A stretch of DNA of 36,499 bases from Smithellaceae bacterium (GCA_028693285.1 JAQUVQ010000027.1:1-36499), one strand, 5' to 3'; positions 1 to 8,577 are shown, counted from the stretch's first letter. Numbers and translations: made by a program. The notes: a model not told the origin generated them from the sequence alone.

Positions 1-1631
1 CCGGTTTCGATGCTTGCCCCGCTGATCAGAAGATTGAGCCCCGACTGCTTTTTCCTCGCGTATTGAAAAGCCCGGGCAATGTTTTTCAGCTCCGTTCTTT
101 GTCTTTCGGCCAGGGGAAGGTCTATGATTTTTCGTTCAGGTCTGTAGAGCTTGCAGAATTTGTTGTCCCGGGCCATCTGCTTTGTTTGTAAATCCGCCGC
201 CTGCGTAAGCATTTGCCCGGTGATCACAAGGTTGCCCCGATCATCCGATTCAGCGGAATTGGCCGCCAGGAAGATGGTGTTCTTGATCAAACCGCCGCTG
301 AACGGATAGCGCTCATTGAGAGCCTTCATATTCACATCCGGGGCCAATTTTATAAAACCGGGCAGCAGCGCTTTCCAGATTTTCAACCTCTGTTCCGCGT
401 CGGGAAGGGGGAAATGGATTTTCATGGAAAGGCGCCGTTCCATGGCGGGGTCGATGCTTGCGGCCTTGTTGGTGGCGAAGATGACCACACACTTGGCTTT
501 TTCAATCTGGATGAGAAGCGTCCGGGCCAGACTGGAGCCTTCCTTGAATATATCGTCGGCTTCGTCGAAGAAAATAAAACCCCGCAGAAGGGCCGCTTCC
601 CGGAAGGCCTGAATCATGACGGATTCCAATGTCCAACTGAACTGTGTATTGTTCAGATTCACGGTGATCAGCGGCCTGCCGAAATGATGCGCCAGCGCCC
701 TGGCCATCATCGTTTTCCCTGTCCCGGAAGGCCCCTGGAAAAAGAGGGCCAGCGCCGTGCCGTATTCCAGAAATTCATCCAACCGGGACCATTCACTCCT
801 TTCTTTCCGGCGGAGATACCTGGCAATGTGATCAACCAGCGGTTTTTTCACGTGCGCGGGCATAATGACCGTTTCCAGATCAATGGCGCTTTGCTCGATG
901 CTGATTTCATTATACGTGCTGTTGTACAATCGATTGTCGCCGACAATGCGGCGGACATGGCGCTCGTTGATGGTTACGGTTTCATCCATGACATGCGAAC
1001 TTCTGTTTTCATAATCGCTCTTGAAGAATATGATCTCGCGGGCAACCAGCGGCGCGCCTCTGCTGAAATATTTTCTTTTCTCCAACTGTTCCCCGTAGTC
1101 CTTACAGAGGATAAAAAGAATGATGCGGATAATAATGCCCCTTGGGTCATCGTCCAAGCCACAGGGACAAAAAGCATTGCGGAAGGTCTTGCTGGTGGCG
1201 TGCATGAACAGGAGCAGAAGAATTTTTTCATCAAAGTCATCCAGTTGGTTTTCCCGGCAAAACAGCGGAAAGAAAAGCTCAGGGCCGGACCGAATCGTTT
1301 TGTTGTGGCGTGACCGATTGATGTTTCGAACCCGGGCAAGCTCCGCTTCGATGTGCTCCCGGGTGATGTTCTGCGGTGTCAGGTCCAGCCCGGCGCAGAG
1401 CCGAATCCCTTCCCCGTCGTTTTCCAGCCCTTCGGTTTTTCCCGACCGGACTGCTGACAAAACAAGCATCAGCAGGGCCTCTTTCTCCAATGCGGCAAGG
1501 TATTCATAATTATCGGCAAATGGGCTTTCCTCCGGTGTTGCCTCACCGTCCGGCACGATGGCAAGCCACTGGCCGGACTGTCCCCCAAGCGGCGTTGGTT
1601 GATTCCTGACGGCATTTTGCGTCTGATTCAT
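1..1631 (-). CDS. AAA+ ATPase, partial (C-terminus beyond the window)
   Basis: The minus-strand frame opens at ATG 1631 and stays open for 543 codons to the window edge, so the protein is longer than seen here. A GGGAGGG ribosome site precedes the ATG, and the gene starts 9 bases after the ClpP-like stop, so the two are almost certainly co-transcribed. Residues 1-250 match no family I recognise. Residues about 255-460 form a classical AAA module (FtsH/VPS4 type): Walker A GPSGTGKT at 300-307, Walker B IFFDEAD near 353-359, sensor-1 Asn388 in FATNK, and the arginine-finger region DPAMERRL near 394-401. After the lid region a new strand-like segment, LLISGAS near 534-540, may begin a second ATPase module, but the window ends there. 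No ClpX-type IGF docking loop is visible in the part present. The substrate is unknown; it may remodel or unfold proteins for the neighbouring protease. Confidence 0.85.
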   Translation of the reverse strand, partial: MNQTQNAVRNQPTPLGGQSGQWLAIVPDGEATPEESPFADNYEYLAALEKEALLMLVLSAVRSGKTEGLENDGEGIRLCAGLDLTPQNITREHIEAELARVRNINRSRHNKTIRSGPELFFPLFCRENQLDDFDEKILLLLFMHATSKTFRNAFCPCGLDDDPRGIIIRIILFILCKDYGEQLEKRKYFSRGAPLVAREIIFFKSDYENRSSHVMDETVTINERHVRRIVGDNRLYNSTYNEISIEQSAIDLETVIMPAHVKKPLVDHIARYLRRKERSEWSRLDEFLEYGTALALFFQGPSGTGKTMMARALAHHFGRPLITVNLNNTQFSWTLESVMIQAFREAALLRGFIFFDEADDIFKEGSSLARTLLIQIEKAKCVVIFATNKAASIDPAMERRLSMKIHFPLPDAEQRLKIWKALLPGFIKLAPDVNMKALNERYPFSGGLIKNTIFLAANSAESDDRGNLVITGQMLTQAADLQTKQMARDNKFCKLYRPERKIIDLPLAERQRTELKNIARAFQYARKKQSGLNLLISGASIET

Positions 1632-1640
1632 AGTCCCTCC

Positions 1641-2207
1641 CTAAGGTCTTTTCCTCATCGGTTCAACAACGTCCACAATGCCCATCCGGACAGCTTCTTC
1701 CGTGGTGAGCCAGGTATCGACATCTCTTAAAAGGTGTGTTTCCAGTTCGTTGCGGTCCTTGATGGCGGAATAGGTCATGTAATGGTTCAGGATGCGTTCG
1801 TGCAGCATGTCTTCTTCCCTCCGCCCCGCGATGAGCTGGCTGTGATTGCCGAAGTTTGCGGCCGAGAAGCGATGCGATAAAATGGATGTCCTTGGCGTGA
1901 CGACGCGATGGCCTTTTTCGCCGGTCATGAAGATCAAAAGCCCCATGGAGGCGATGAGCCCGATGCCGGTTGTGTAGATGGGAATGTTGGACCACTCCAT
2001 GATGTCGATGATGGAAAAGCCGGCCGTGCAGGTGCCGCCCGGTGAGTTGATCACCATCTGAACCTGGTTGATGCTGCCTTTGATGTTGAATTCGATGAGT
2101 TGTTTGCAGATTTCCTCGGCCTTTGCTTCCCCGATCACCCCGGACAGATAAATGATGCCGTAATCGGCCAGTCCCTTTTCCTCCCTTTCCTTTTCTTTAG
2201 CGGCCAT
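1641..2207 (-). CDS. ClpP-like serine protease subunit
   Basis: This 188-residue protein of the ClpP/crotonase fold has the full catalytic triad in ClpP spacing: Ser87 in the ASMG motif, His112 in LSHRFS, and Asp164 in DVDTWLT, followed by the typical EAVRMGIVD helix. The oxyanion-type glycine segment NSPGG lies at 54-58. It lacks a long N-terminal propeptide. Divergent positions (ASMGL, SHRFS) suggest a paralogue rather than the housekeeping clpP, which normally sits beside tig and clpX; neither is nearby. Start ATG 2207 has a GGGAGG site. The gene is first in an operon with the AAA+ gene and divergent from a WYL regulator. ClpP proteases form tetradecamers fed by an AAA+ unfoldase; whether the neighbour plays that part is inference. 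Confidence 0.88.
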   Translation of the reverse strand: MAAKEKEREEKGLADYGIIYLSGVIGEAKAEEICKQLIEFNIKGSINQVQMVINSPGGTCTAGFSIIDIMEWSNIPIYTTGIGLIASMGLLIFMTGEKGHRVVTPRTSILSHRFSAANFGNHSQLIAGRREEDMLHERILNHYMTYSAIKDRNELETHLLRDVDTWLTTEEAVRMGIVDVVEPMRKRP

Positions 2208-2233
2208 TTTAAACCTCCCGTCTTGATTTTGAT

Positions 2234-2274
2234 GTCATCATGCCGCACAGGAGTGTCATTTTTGGTCATTTTGA
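2234..2274. promoter_or_regulatory. Helically phased GTCAT direct repeats, possible operator
   Basis: GTCAT occurs at 2234, 2255 and 2265, i.e. at spacings of 21 and 10 bases, so all three copies face the same side of the helix. The last two extend to near-identical 10-mers, GTCATTTTTG and GTCATTTTGA. They lie in the leader of the clpP-like gene, between its promoter and ribosome site. Binding by the divergent WYL regulator is a guess from position. Confidence 0.35.
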
Positions 2275-2314
2275 AAAAAATATTTTGCGTTTGGGGGCGA
2301 TTGCCGGTAAGGTG

Positions 2315-2342
2315 CTTATAATTATTGCGTTTATCGCTTCAA
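2315..2342 (-). promoter_or_regulatory. Candidate promoter of the clpP-like/AAA operon
   Basis: Read on the minus strand, TTGAAG (2342-2337) and TATAAG (2320-2315) are 16 bases apart, a fair sigma-70 match, about 110 bases upstream of ATG 2207. The same AT-rich stretch reads TATAAT on the plus strand (2317-2322), a possible -10 box for the WYL gene with no good -35. The two promoters may overlap and compete. Confidence 0.4.
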
Positions 2343-2367
2343 AAAAATTAACCTTCAGGTGAAAATC

Positions 2368-3402
2368 ATGCGTCTGAAACTGCTCAAAAAGCTGGTTGAC
2401 GCCATTACGCTGCTGGCGCAGCCGACAGGAACGACGATTTCGTCTCTTTGCGAAAGGCTCGGCGTCAACAAAAGGCAGGCTTACCGGGTGATTCATGAAA
2501 TCCAAAGTGAGTTCAAGATCATGATTGACAAGGATAAACCTCTGCTCGGCGGCGAAACCCGGTACTACCTGGATCGAGAGTTCATCCGCCGGCTTTCCGA
2601 AATCAAGGTGGCGGACCTGAACCTGACTTTCCAGGAACTGTTGAGCCTGTATTCCATTAAAGGTCATGCCCGCCTGTATCGCGGCACGGACATCGAGGCG
2701 AATATTGAACGAGCCTTCGGCAAGCTGGACGTTTTTTTCCCGGAAGCCTTCTCCCGAAAGCTGGAACAGGTCAAAGCGCTGTTTCTGACGGCGGACAAAC
2801 TGTCCAAGGACTACACCGGAAAGGAGGACATTATCGAAGAACTGGCCGAGGCTGTCCTGCAAAAGAAAACCTGCCTTGTGGAGTATCATTCCTATTCTTC
2901 CGGAAAAGTCAGCTCCTTCCATATCGATCCGCTGAAATTATTTGAATGGAACGGCGGTCTTTACACGTCGGTGCGCGTGGCGAAATATGACGCGATTCGC
3001 ACGCTGGCGGTGGAAAGAATCAACACCCTGACGATCACGGACAGGGAATTTGCTTATCCGGAAAACTACAATCCCGATGAAATCCTGGAAGACGCCTTCG
3101 GCATTATCTATGACGATCCGGTGACGGTGAAAATCCGCTTCTGCGCGAAACAGGCGCCGTATATCCGGGAGCGCAAGTGGTGCAGGCATCAGCAGATTGA
3201 AGATCGTGAGGACGGCTGCATCATCCTGACCCTGTCCACTTCCGGCTGGTACGACGTCAAAAAATGGATTCTTTCCTTTGGAGCGGATGCCGAGCTTTTG
3301 GAGCCTGCCGACAAAAGAAAGGAAGTCCTTCAAGAGATCAGCCGGACGGCCTCGCTATACCGATCAGGTATAAAACCGGCAGGGCGACGCATTGAAAGAT
3401 GA
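2368..3402 (+). CDS. WYL-domain transcriptional regulator with N-terminal HTH
   Basis: The N-terminal 60 residues form a winged helix-turn-helix of the HTH_11/DeoR kind (LCERLGVNKRQAYRVIHEI). Residues about 145-225 match the WYL domain (VEYHSYSSGK, HIDPLKLFEWNGGLYT, VERI), and a WCX-like C-terminal extension follows. The layout is that of YafY/PafC-type regulators, whose WYL domain senses a ligand, in some cases nucleic acid. A GTG at 2359 is in frame, but AGGTG sits 6 bases before ATG 2368, so I use the ATG (344 residues). The gene is divergent from the clpP-like/AAA operon with a 160-base shared control region, which makes local regulation of that operon likely. Confidence 0.87.
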   Translation: MRLKLLKKLVDAITLLAQPTGTTISSLCERLGVNKRQAYRVIHEIQSEFKIMIDKDKPLLGGETRYYLDREFIRRLSEIKVADLNLTFQELLSLYSIKGHARLYRGTDIEANIERAFGKLDVFFPEAFSRKLEQVKALFLTADKLSKDYTGKEDIIEELAEAVLQKKTCLVEYHSYSSGKVSSFHIDPLKLFEWNGGLYTSVRVAKYDAIRTLAVERINTLTITDREFAYPENYNPDEILEDAFGIIYDDPVTVKIRFCAKQAPYIRERKWCRHQQIEDREDGCIILTLSTSGWYDVKKWILSFGADAELLEPADKRKEVLQEISRTASLYRSGIKPAGRRIER

Positions 3403-3545: not shown

Positions 3546-4172
3546 ATGCCGGGTCCTGATTCCATTCAAAAACGCCAGGAAGAGCTGGCCCAACGCCAAT
3601 GGCCGATCGCCGACATTGAAGCACGATTCAACCGATTGGCGCAAAACGGCATTCCACACAAAACGCCGGACCGGGAAAAAATGCTCCGCGACAGGGAAGA
3701 GATTCTGGATCGCGTGCAGCGCCGGGCGGAAGATTACTGTTACCTGATGCGCAACTGCGCCAAGAGCAGCGCCACGGCCCTGTTCGAAGAGTTCGGTCTG
3801 GGCAGCCTGGACATCATCCGCGGATTGGGTCCGTTTCCAGGCCTGGCCATGTCCGGCGGAATCTGCGGACCGGTGGCTGGAGGGCTCATCGCCCTGGGTC
3901 TTTTTTTCTCCCATCCCGATATCACCAAACAGGACGACACCGGCGCGTATCTTTACGGACGGCTGTTCATCCACCGGTTTGAATCGGCATTCGGGAGCCT
4001 CTCCTGCCCGGATATTCAAAAAAGGCTGCTGGGAAAATACTATGATCCCATGAGCAGCATGGAAAATCTCAAGGCGTTCAACGCCAGCGGCGCCCGAAAA
4101 CAGTGCGTGATCGCGCCGGGCATGGGCGCCAGGATTGCCGCGGAAATCATGCTGGAAAGCATGGCTAAATAA
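3546..4172 (+). CDS. C_GCAxxG_C_C family redox protein
   Basis: The 208-residue protein has the family's central signature: Cys in NCAKSSATALFEEFGLG near 70-87, then a glycine-rich stretch ending in GGICGPVAGG, and later cysteines in LSCPDIQ and RKQCVIAPG. These conserved cysteines suggest a redox or metal-binding role; the family has no firmly established reaction. It carries an extra N-terminal helical segment of about 65 residues compared with short members. AGGAGAG lies 7 bases before the ATG. It is followed 79 bases later by the HdrB-like gene, and a second member of the family closes the same locus at 8053, so both probably serve the flavoprotein/CCG complex. Confidence 0.75.
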   Translation: MPGPDSIQKRQEELAQRQWPIADIEARFNRLAQNGIPHKTPDREKMLRDREEILDRVQRRAEDYCYLMRNCAKSSATALFEEFGLGSLDIIRGLGPFPGLAMSGGICGPVAGGLIALGLFFSHPDITKQDDTGAYLYGRLFIHRFESAFGSLSCPDIQKRLLGKYYDPMSSMENLKAFNASGARKQCVIAPGMGARIAAEIMLESMAK

Positions 4173-8052: not shown

Positions 8053-8577
8053 ATGAACAAAGAAGAAATGCTCGAAGAAGTCTTTAAGAGGGCGAAAGCC
8101 TGTGAACTTCGCGGCGGCAACTGCGCGCAATGCTCGCTGAATGCTATTTTTGAAGTCTTGGGCGTGGAGGATGAAAACGTCGTGCGCTCCGCCACGGGAT
8201 TTGCCGACGGCGTGGGCCTTTCCGGCGACGGCCACTGCGGCGCCCTTTCCGGCGGCACGATGGCTATCAGCTACTTTTTCGGCCGGAAAAAAGAAGACCT
8301 GGGCCGGATGGGCAAGCAGATCAGAGCGCTGCTGCTCGCCAAAAAATTCCATGAACAGTTCGTAAAGGAATTCTCCACCTGCCGCTGCCACGATCTTCAG
8401 GTCAGGCAGTTCGGCCGCTTTTTCAACCTCTACGACATGCAAGACATGAAGGCGGCGCTGGCCGCGGGAATGCCGGAAGGCTGCTCCACACTCGTGGGCA
8501 AGGCGGCGCGCATGGCGCTGGCCATCATCCTCGACGAACAGGCCCGCGGGGACTTGGGGTCAAATCTTTATTCTTGA
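8053..8577 (+). CDS. C_GCAxxG_C_C family redox protein with repeat-derived C-terminus
   Basis: This 174-residue protein matches the family better than the copy at 3546: GGNCAQCSLNAIFEVLG near 21-37, ATGFADGVGLSGDGHCGALSGG near 48-69, a CRCHDLQ motif, and EGCSTLVGKAA near the C-terminus. A redox or metal-binding function is inferred from the conserved cysteines. The last residues after ILDEQAR (GDLGSNLYS) do not belong to the family; they are read from a repeat fragment at about 8550-8590. The fold should be complete without them. GGAG lies upstream, somewhat far from the ATG. It sits 215 bases after the HdrD-like gene, across the REP cluster. Confidence 0.8.
   Translation: MNKEEMLEEVFKRAKACELRGGNCAQCSLNAIFEVLGVEDENVVRSATGFADGVGLSGDGHCGALSGGTMAISYFFGRKKEDLGRMGKQIRALLLAKKFHEQFVKEFSTCRCHDLQVRQFGRFFNLYDMQDMKAALAAGMPEGCSTLVGKAARMALAIILDEQARGDLGSNLYS

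Follow-up and report, generated by a model that had tools for sequence, protein, structure and literature searches.

The locus at positions 1-3402 of the window (the whole stretch of DNA analyzed, 36,499 nucleotides from a Smithellaceae bacterium) raises the question of what a ClpP-like peptidase does beside an AAA ATPase that is not ClpX. The original prediction, in which a WYL regulator gene is transcribed away from a clpP-aaa operon, holds in both arrangement and coordinates on ORF reading of this region. The HTH-WYL-WCX transcription regulator is encoded at 2368..3402 on the plus strand, with orthologues in L021, L022, L020, and L081; the listed ORF begins from GTG at 2359, and the ATG at 2368 is the better start and agrees with the relatives. 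On the minus strand are the gene for the ClpP-like serine peptidase (1641..2207) and, 9 bases past its stop as previously read, the AAA ATPase gene (3..1631), which is open at the contig end and comprises the first 543 codons of about 753. Contig C52 of the near-complete host genome (2.68 Mb in 95 contigs), whose named close matches are metagenome assemblies of Smithella and Syntrophaceae, coincides with the window from end to end, so the AAA gene is not extendable leftwards, and no second AAA copy or lost 3′ end is present elsewhere in the assembly, where only a low-scoring FtsH-like protein was found. Where estimable, dN/dS against relatives is 0.05-0.17 for the three genes, which indicates purifying selection on each; the comparison of the WYL gene with L021 is saturated. 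The remaining neighbors in the window, on the other side of the module, are metabolic genes, and the ClpP-AAA pair of L022 lies in the same metabolic context. A gene for a C_GCAxxG_C_C-type redox protein (3546-4172) and a similar-looking gene (8053-8577) enclose a glycolate-oxidase-like gene cluster in the window, and in L022 two genes related to these redox-type genes are placed immediately past the WYL gene that accompanies the pair.

The peptidase is a ClpP (S14) by Pfam match, triad, and fold. It scores 112 bits against PF00574 (cut-off 20.2), its fold matches solved ClpP with Z 26, and the retained residues Ser87, His112, and Asp164 fall on the catalytic triad of E. coli ClpP in the alignment. 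The NCBIfam models of the housekeeping ClpP subfamily are missed (103.9 against 228 bits and 82 against 308 bits), and the gene is indeed far from tig and clpX, the housekeeping tig-clpP-clpX cluster being located on a separate contig, C78. Substantial changes occur at the surface that receives ClpX. The E. coli ClpP positions that we take to form the docking pocket are Y60, Y62, F82, F112, L114, and L189, and in 8/8 pair ClpPs examined these are replaced much alike, Y60 by Gln, Y62 by Val or Ile, F82 by Trp, F112 by Val, L114 by Thr, and L189 by Glu or Gln, with the Trp at the Phe82 position being specific to the pair. The corresponding residues in the host's housekeeping ClpP are canonical or conservatively changed. 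The N terminus is also short, and the axial N-terminal loop is absent from all eight pair ClpPs examined.

In a phylogenetic tree the pair ClpPs cluster with their nearest kin, the stand-alone phage ClpPs, apart from the housekeeping ClpPs (100/100), and within this cluster they form a group of their own (94/99). The phage-encoded proteins (jumbo phages, PMC7824862; Phosso and BUCT-ZZ01) are 36-41% identical to the pair ClpPs and share this clade, but they lack the Trp at the F82 position, and no AAA of the pair type was found next to these kindred phage genes. A review raises the possibility that jumbo-phage ClpP is turned against the host (PMC7824862). Bacillus phage G carries a ClpXP pair of its own, in which the ClpP-like gp257 adjoins the ClpX-like gp258 (L124:214-1089).

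The Walker A, Walker B, and sensor/SRH regions of the ATPase are intact, as first described. The N-terminal region of 250 residues that had been left unassigned is the domain PF22977, "Winged helix domain, variant" (921..1544, minus strand; 1.4e-26, 94 bits against a cut-off of 27). This domain is known from injection-system ATPases, and it is also found in the L026 AAA protein encoded beside contractile-tail genes. The first, active AAA domain (168..914, minus strand, with limits taken from the predicted model of a relative) contains the Walker A motif GPSGTGKT, the Walker B motif FIFFDE, and the SRH ATNKAASIDPAMERR. It matches PF00004 (5.1e-18) with the SRH present, the solved-structure sequence matches are to Cdc48/VCP, and the closest folds are PAN, FtsH, and p97 (Z 19-21). 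The ATPase therefore belongs to the classical AAA clade and not to the Clp clade. Relatives of intact length have about 753 amino acids, with the last 250 residues forming a second AAA domain that lacks Walker motifs; hhalign aligns it with the first domain over most of its length (E ~1e-6), and a low-confidence model predicts secondary-structure elements for it that follow the AAA order. Confidence in the model of the full ATPase is low (pLDDT 61, pTM 0.36). In the window only the start of this degenerate domain is present (3..140, minus strand; assigned from hhalign, alignment, and model), and its remainder and the C terminus are read from relatives since the contig ends within the gene. The pair resembles ClpXP, ClpAP, and ClpCP in the ClpP fold, the triad, and the ATPase partner gene beside the peptidase. 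It differs in having a classical-clade rather than a Clp/HCLR ATPase and in the altered pocket and N terminus of its ClpP. The ClpX model TIGR00382 is missed (14.4 against 370.75 bits), which agrees with the earlier non-ClpX assignment, and the aligned AAA members have no columns corresponding to the internal conserved [LIV]-G-[FL] loop (the IGF loop) that contacts ClpP, the only such sequence being a C-terminal LFG.

The ClpP-AAA pair is a conserved module. It is present in 10 Syntrophaceae genomes and in three other Desulfobacterota families, with strict co-occurrence of ClpP and AAA in 13 genomes, which represent four families or more, and the WYL gene accompanies it in most, so that the triplet extends well beyond the strain in which it was noticed. 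In every intact locus the two genes are adjacent. Among order-level relatives the adjoining ClpP is 68-91% identical to that of the window and the AAA only 39-76%; with the AAA profile, three further Desulfobacterota families also gave full-length homologues, each encoded immediately after a clpP whose product belongs to the same clade (57-66%). Blind searches with ClpP only and with AAA only returned the identical three of ~394 phylum genomes. In the order (154 genomes) the ClpP profile matched nine, and the AAA profile matched the same nine and one more, whose contig starts inside the AAA gene. Hypergeometric probabilities for the co-occurrence, calculated with phylogeny ignored, are 1e-7 (phylum, 3/3 in ~394) and 1e-13 (order, 9/9 within 10), and no orphan ClpP or orphan AAA was seen in the order and phylum searches. 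The distribution is patchy, as 6/20 sampled genomes of the same genus have the pair. Across the phylum to which a Burkholderia genome belongs, 398 genomes gave no match to the ClpP clade at E 1e-40; as this search had no positive control, it indicates only that the clade is rare there. A scan of IMG/VR with the AAA alignment gave no relatives, and plasmids and phages gave only partial matches below 35%, the best of which, on a Nostoc plasmid, has no adjoining ClpP.

The regulator of the window matches the WYL (1.3e-11, 44.8 against 21.8 bits) and WCX (2.1e-17, 63.7 against 23.9 bits) domains; a PADLOC match of the same protein to "Cas3c" was rejected, as the model probably contains a WYL part. 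Between the divergent genes is a conserved promoter block (2252..2293) with the direct repeat GTCATTTT-N2-GTCATTTT in a 10-bp period, a candidate WYL operator, and no exact inverted repeat occurs in this promoter. Orthologues of the window regulator are divergent from clpP in four loci (window, G013, G015, and G019), and all four carry the motif GTGTCATNTTTGGNCATTTT in the intergenic region; among the 127 loci fetched, this motif is otherwise found only in repeat copies of the same four. Four further loci (G008, G018, G035, and G047) encode a different, non-orthologous WYL protein, 25-28% identical to that of the window, and all have the palindrome GTTCC-N7-GGAAC upstream of clpP (chance 0.03 per locus). 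The two WYL classes and the two motifs thus segregate 4:4 with zero crossover, and both motifs are absent from all other fetched loci, including L081, whose WYL protein is 44% identical to that of the window. This joint exchange of regulator and motif is good evidence that the WYL proteins control the clpP-aaa operon, as had been proposed. The arrangement is similar to the BrxR, CapW, and PafBC-type regulators in having an HTH-WYL-WCX protein next to a defense-like operon with promoter repeats, but here a protease-ATPase pair is regulated and one of the classes has direct rather than inverted repeats. BrxR, which recognizes inverted repeats, is the repressor of a phage-defense island (PMC9122601).

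HbYX tails of PAN and Cdc48 insert into the 20S proteasome, and the IGF loops of ClpX insert into ClpP. In the pair ATPases LFG is found at the C terminus of 9/9 intact ClpP-linked members, usually with a few residues after it, compared with 0/33 relatives without ClpP (38 rows that include five duplicate pairs), and it is kept in homologues down to 27% identity. By analogy with the HbYX tails of proteasome ATPases (PMC12352868), we read LFG as a putative ClpP-docking tail. A (D/E)FG end also occurs in several eCIS-type relatives that lack ClpP (L026, L066, L079, and L088), so FG may be an ancestral element that predates any ClpP docking, with the Leu alone specific to the pair. The PAN/Cdc48-20S proteasome and Cpa (PMC6017811) share with the pair a classical AAA motor, a Cdc48-type tandem AAA arrangement, and a C-terminal hydrophobic-aromatic-x tail. 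They differ from it in that the pair has a ClpP chamber in place of 20S, a degenerate second AAA domain, a winged-helix N-domain, and usually residues after the LFG.

We assign a probability of roughly 0.6 to the reading in which the product of the WYL-controlled operon is an additional compartmental protease, a dedicated ClpP-AAA machine similar to the Cdc48- and PAN-proteasome systems, for which we infer the proteolysis, the docking, and the defense role. Its sequence-based part comprises the intact ClpP fold and triad, the classical AAA architecture, the strict co-occurrence, the altered pocket, the conserved tail, and the regulator-specific motifs. In such a machine ClpP would assemble into a tetradecameric chamber on which an AAA hexamer would stack, directing its C-terminal hydrophobic-Phe-Gly tail into the remodeled ClpP pocket, and the winged-helix domain might select the substrate or sense a nucleic-acid-bound partner. 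The WYL protein would repress the operon until a nucleic-acid or stress signal, for example phage infection, brought about release, and the activated machine could then degrade a phage or host protein, together with the HD and nuclease gene products in many loci. The fullest form of this reading, an independently evolved Cdc48-proteasome analogue that joins a ClpP chamber to a classical tandem AAA through an HbYX-like LFG and serves under interchangeable WYL regulators as an inducible anti-phage protease, is proposed tentatively and is on balance somewhat doubtful. To our knowledge, all characterized ClpP partners are in the Clp (HCLR) ATPase clade. Some anaerobic bacteria have, beside the normal ClpP-ClpX, an additional ClpP whose operon also encodes an unrelated Cdc48-type motor and is under a stress- or defense-type switch; the pair looks like a degradation machine that evolved independently and is probably related to defense. 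If true, the pairing of ClpP with a classical Cdc48/PAN-type ATPase would mean that chamber and motor are exchangeable across the two major groups of ATP-dependent proteases, and a regulated degradation machine would be added to the bacterial defense or stress repertoire.

Nuclease and defense neighbors are present in several loci, a context counted without a background control, and no defense gene lies beside the pair in the window. An HD-domain gene is next after the AAA gene in five genomes, followed in several loci by PD-(D/E)XK-type nucleases (PF22558) and an ERCC4 nuclease. A DUF2779 nuclease-like gene is near the pair in L018, L023, L025, L081, and L083, with a truncated similar N terminus in L024, and within the order DUF2779 occurs in 5/10 pair genomes against 11/144 others (Fisher 0.001, phylogeny ignored). 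ZacABC and a type I methylase are found in L024, a type I restriction subunit in L018, and a NERD-UvrD helicase in L083. From these nuclease, HD, ZacABC, and restriction-type neighbors a defense role is probable, the window side being metabolic. The same dedicated ClpP-AAA protease could instead act in stress or quality control (e.g. DNA damage, as in PafBC/SiwR-type WYL regulons), a possible but rather unlikely role. WYL proteins also run DNA-damage responses (PMC10693628 and PMC11804915), and the metabolic surroundings of the pair in the window and L022 would suit such a function, but patchy presence within the genus, recurrent nuclease and defense neighbors, and phage-type ClpP kin all argue against it. 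No literature on ClpP-AAA defense pairs was found, ClpP is absent from the text of the DefensePredictor and BREX-diversity papers, and the libraries searched contain no described system that corresponds to the module. The ZacABC candidate defense operon is complete in L024 (3078-9263), with PADLOC scores reaching 1100 bits; it follows the pair after a few genes and adjoins the HD and nuclease genes. An RtcR-type CARF-AAA-HTH regulator (5.6e-137) is encoded in G035 (L018:2968-4467), also a few genes downstream of the pair.

The main counter-evidence to an unfoldase function is in pore loop 1, which is variable across ten members and lacks the classical aromatic-hydrophobic-Gly motif; such poor conservation is unexpected for a processive unfoldase. 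It therefore leaves room for an IetAS-like scheme, in which the AAA protein would be a remodeler or sensor and ClpP a separate effector that cleaves a target or the AAA protein itself. The closest PADLOC and NCBIfam models are those of IetA (7.5e-17 and 3.4e-15), and the missing axial loop and the ATPase-less phage ClpPs are also consistent with a two-step switch. We nevertheless consider it improbable, as all pair members combine the LFG tail with the docking-pocket changes. The pair is similar to the IetAS anti-phage system in combining an AAA ATPase with a serine protease gene, but its AAA scores 56 bits against the IetA cut-off of 510, and the partner in all intact loci is ClpP rather than the subtilase IetS. 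The AAA protein falls outside any family with a known unrelated role, the closest named being the eCIS ATPases for the winged helix and IetA, far under cut-off, for the AAA domain.

That the pair is left over from a phage or contractile-injection element, its phage-type ClpP and eCIS-type AAA being kept for particle maturation, is very improbable: the ClpP kin are phage proteins and PF22977 is shared with the tail-associated L026 AAA, but no sheath, tail, or other structural genes were seen near the pair loci, and the purifying selection, the pair's own regulator and promoter motif, and the position of the active domain argue against it. The eCIS AAA ATPases (PF22977) likewise combine the variant winged helix with two AAA domains, and some have (D/E)FG ends, but their active domain is the second rather than the first, and they are encoded with sheath and tail genes and without ClpP. 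A second double-AAA ATPase, IetA-like (2.4e-35) and with two intact Walker motifs, is encoded in G008 between the WYL gene and clpP (L023:5767-8025).
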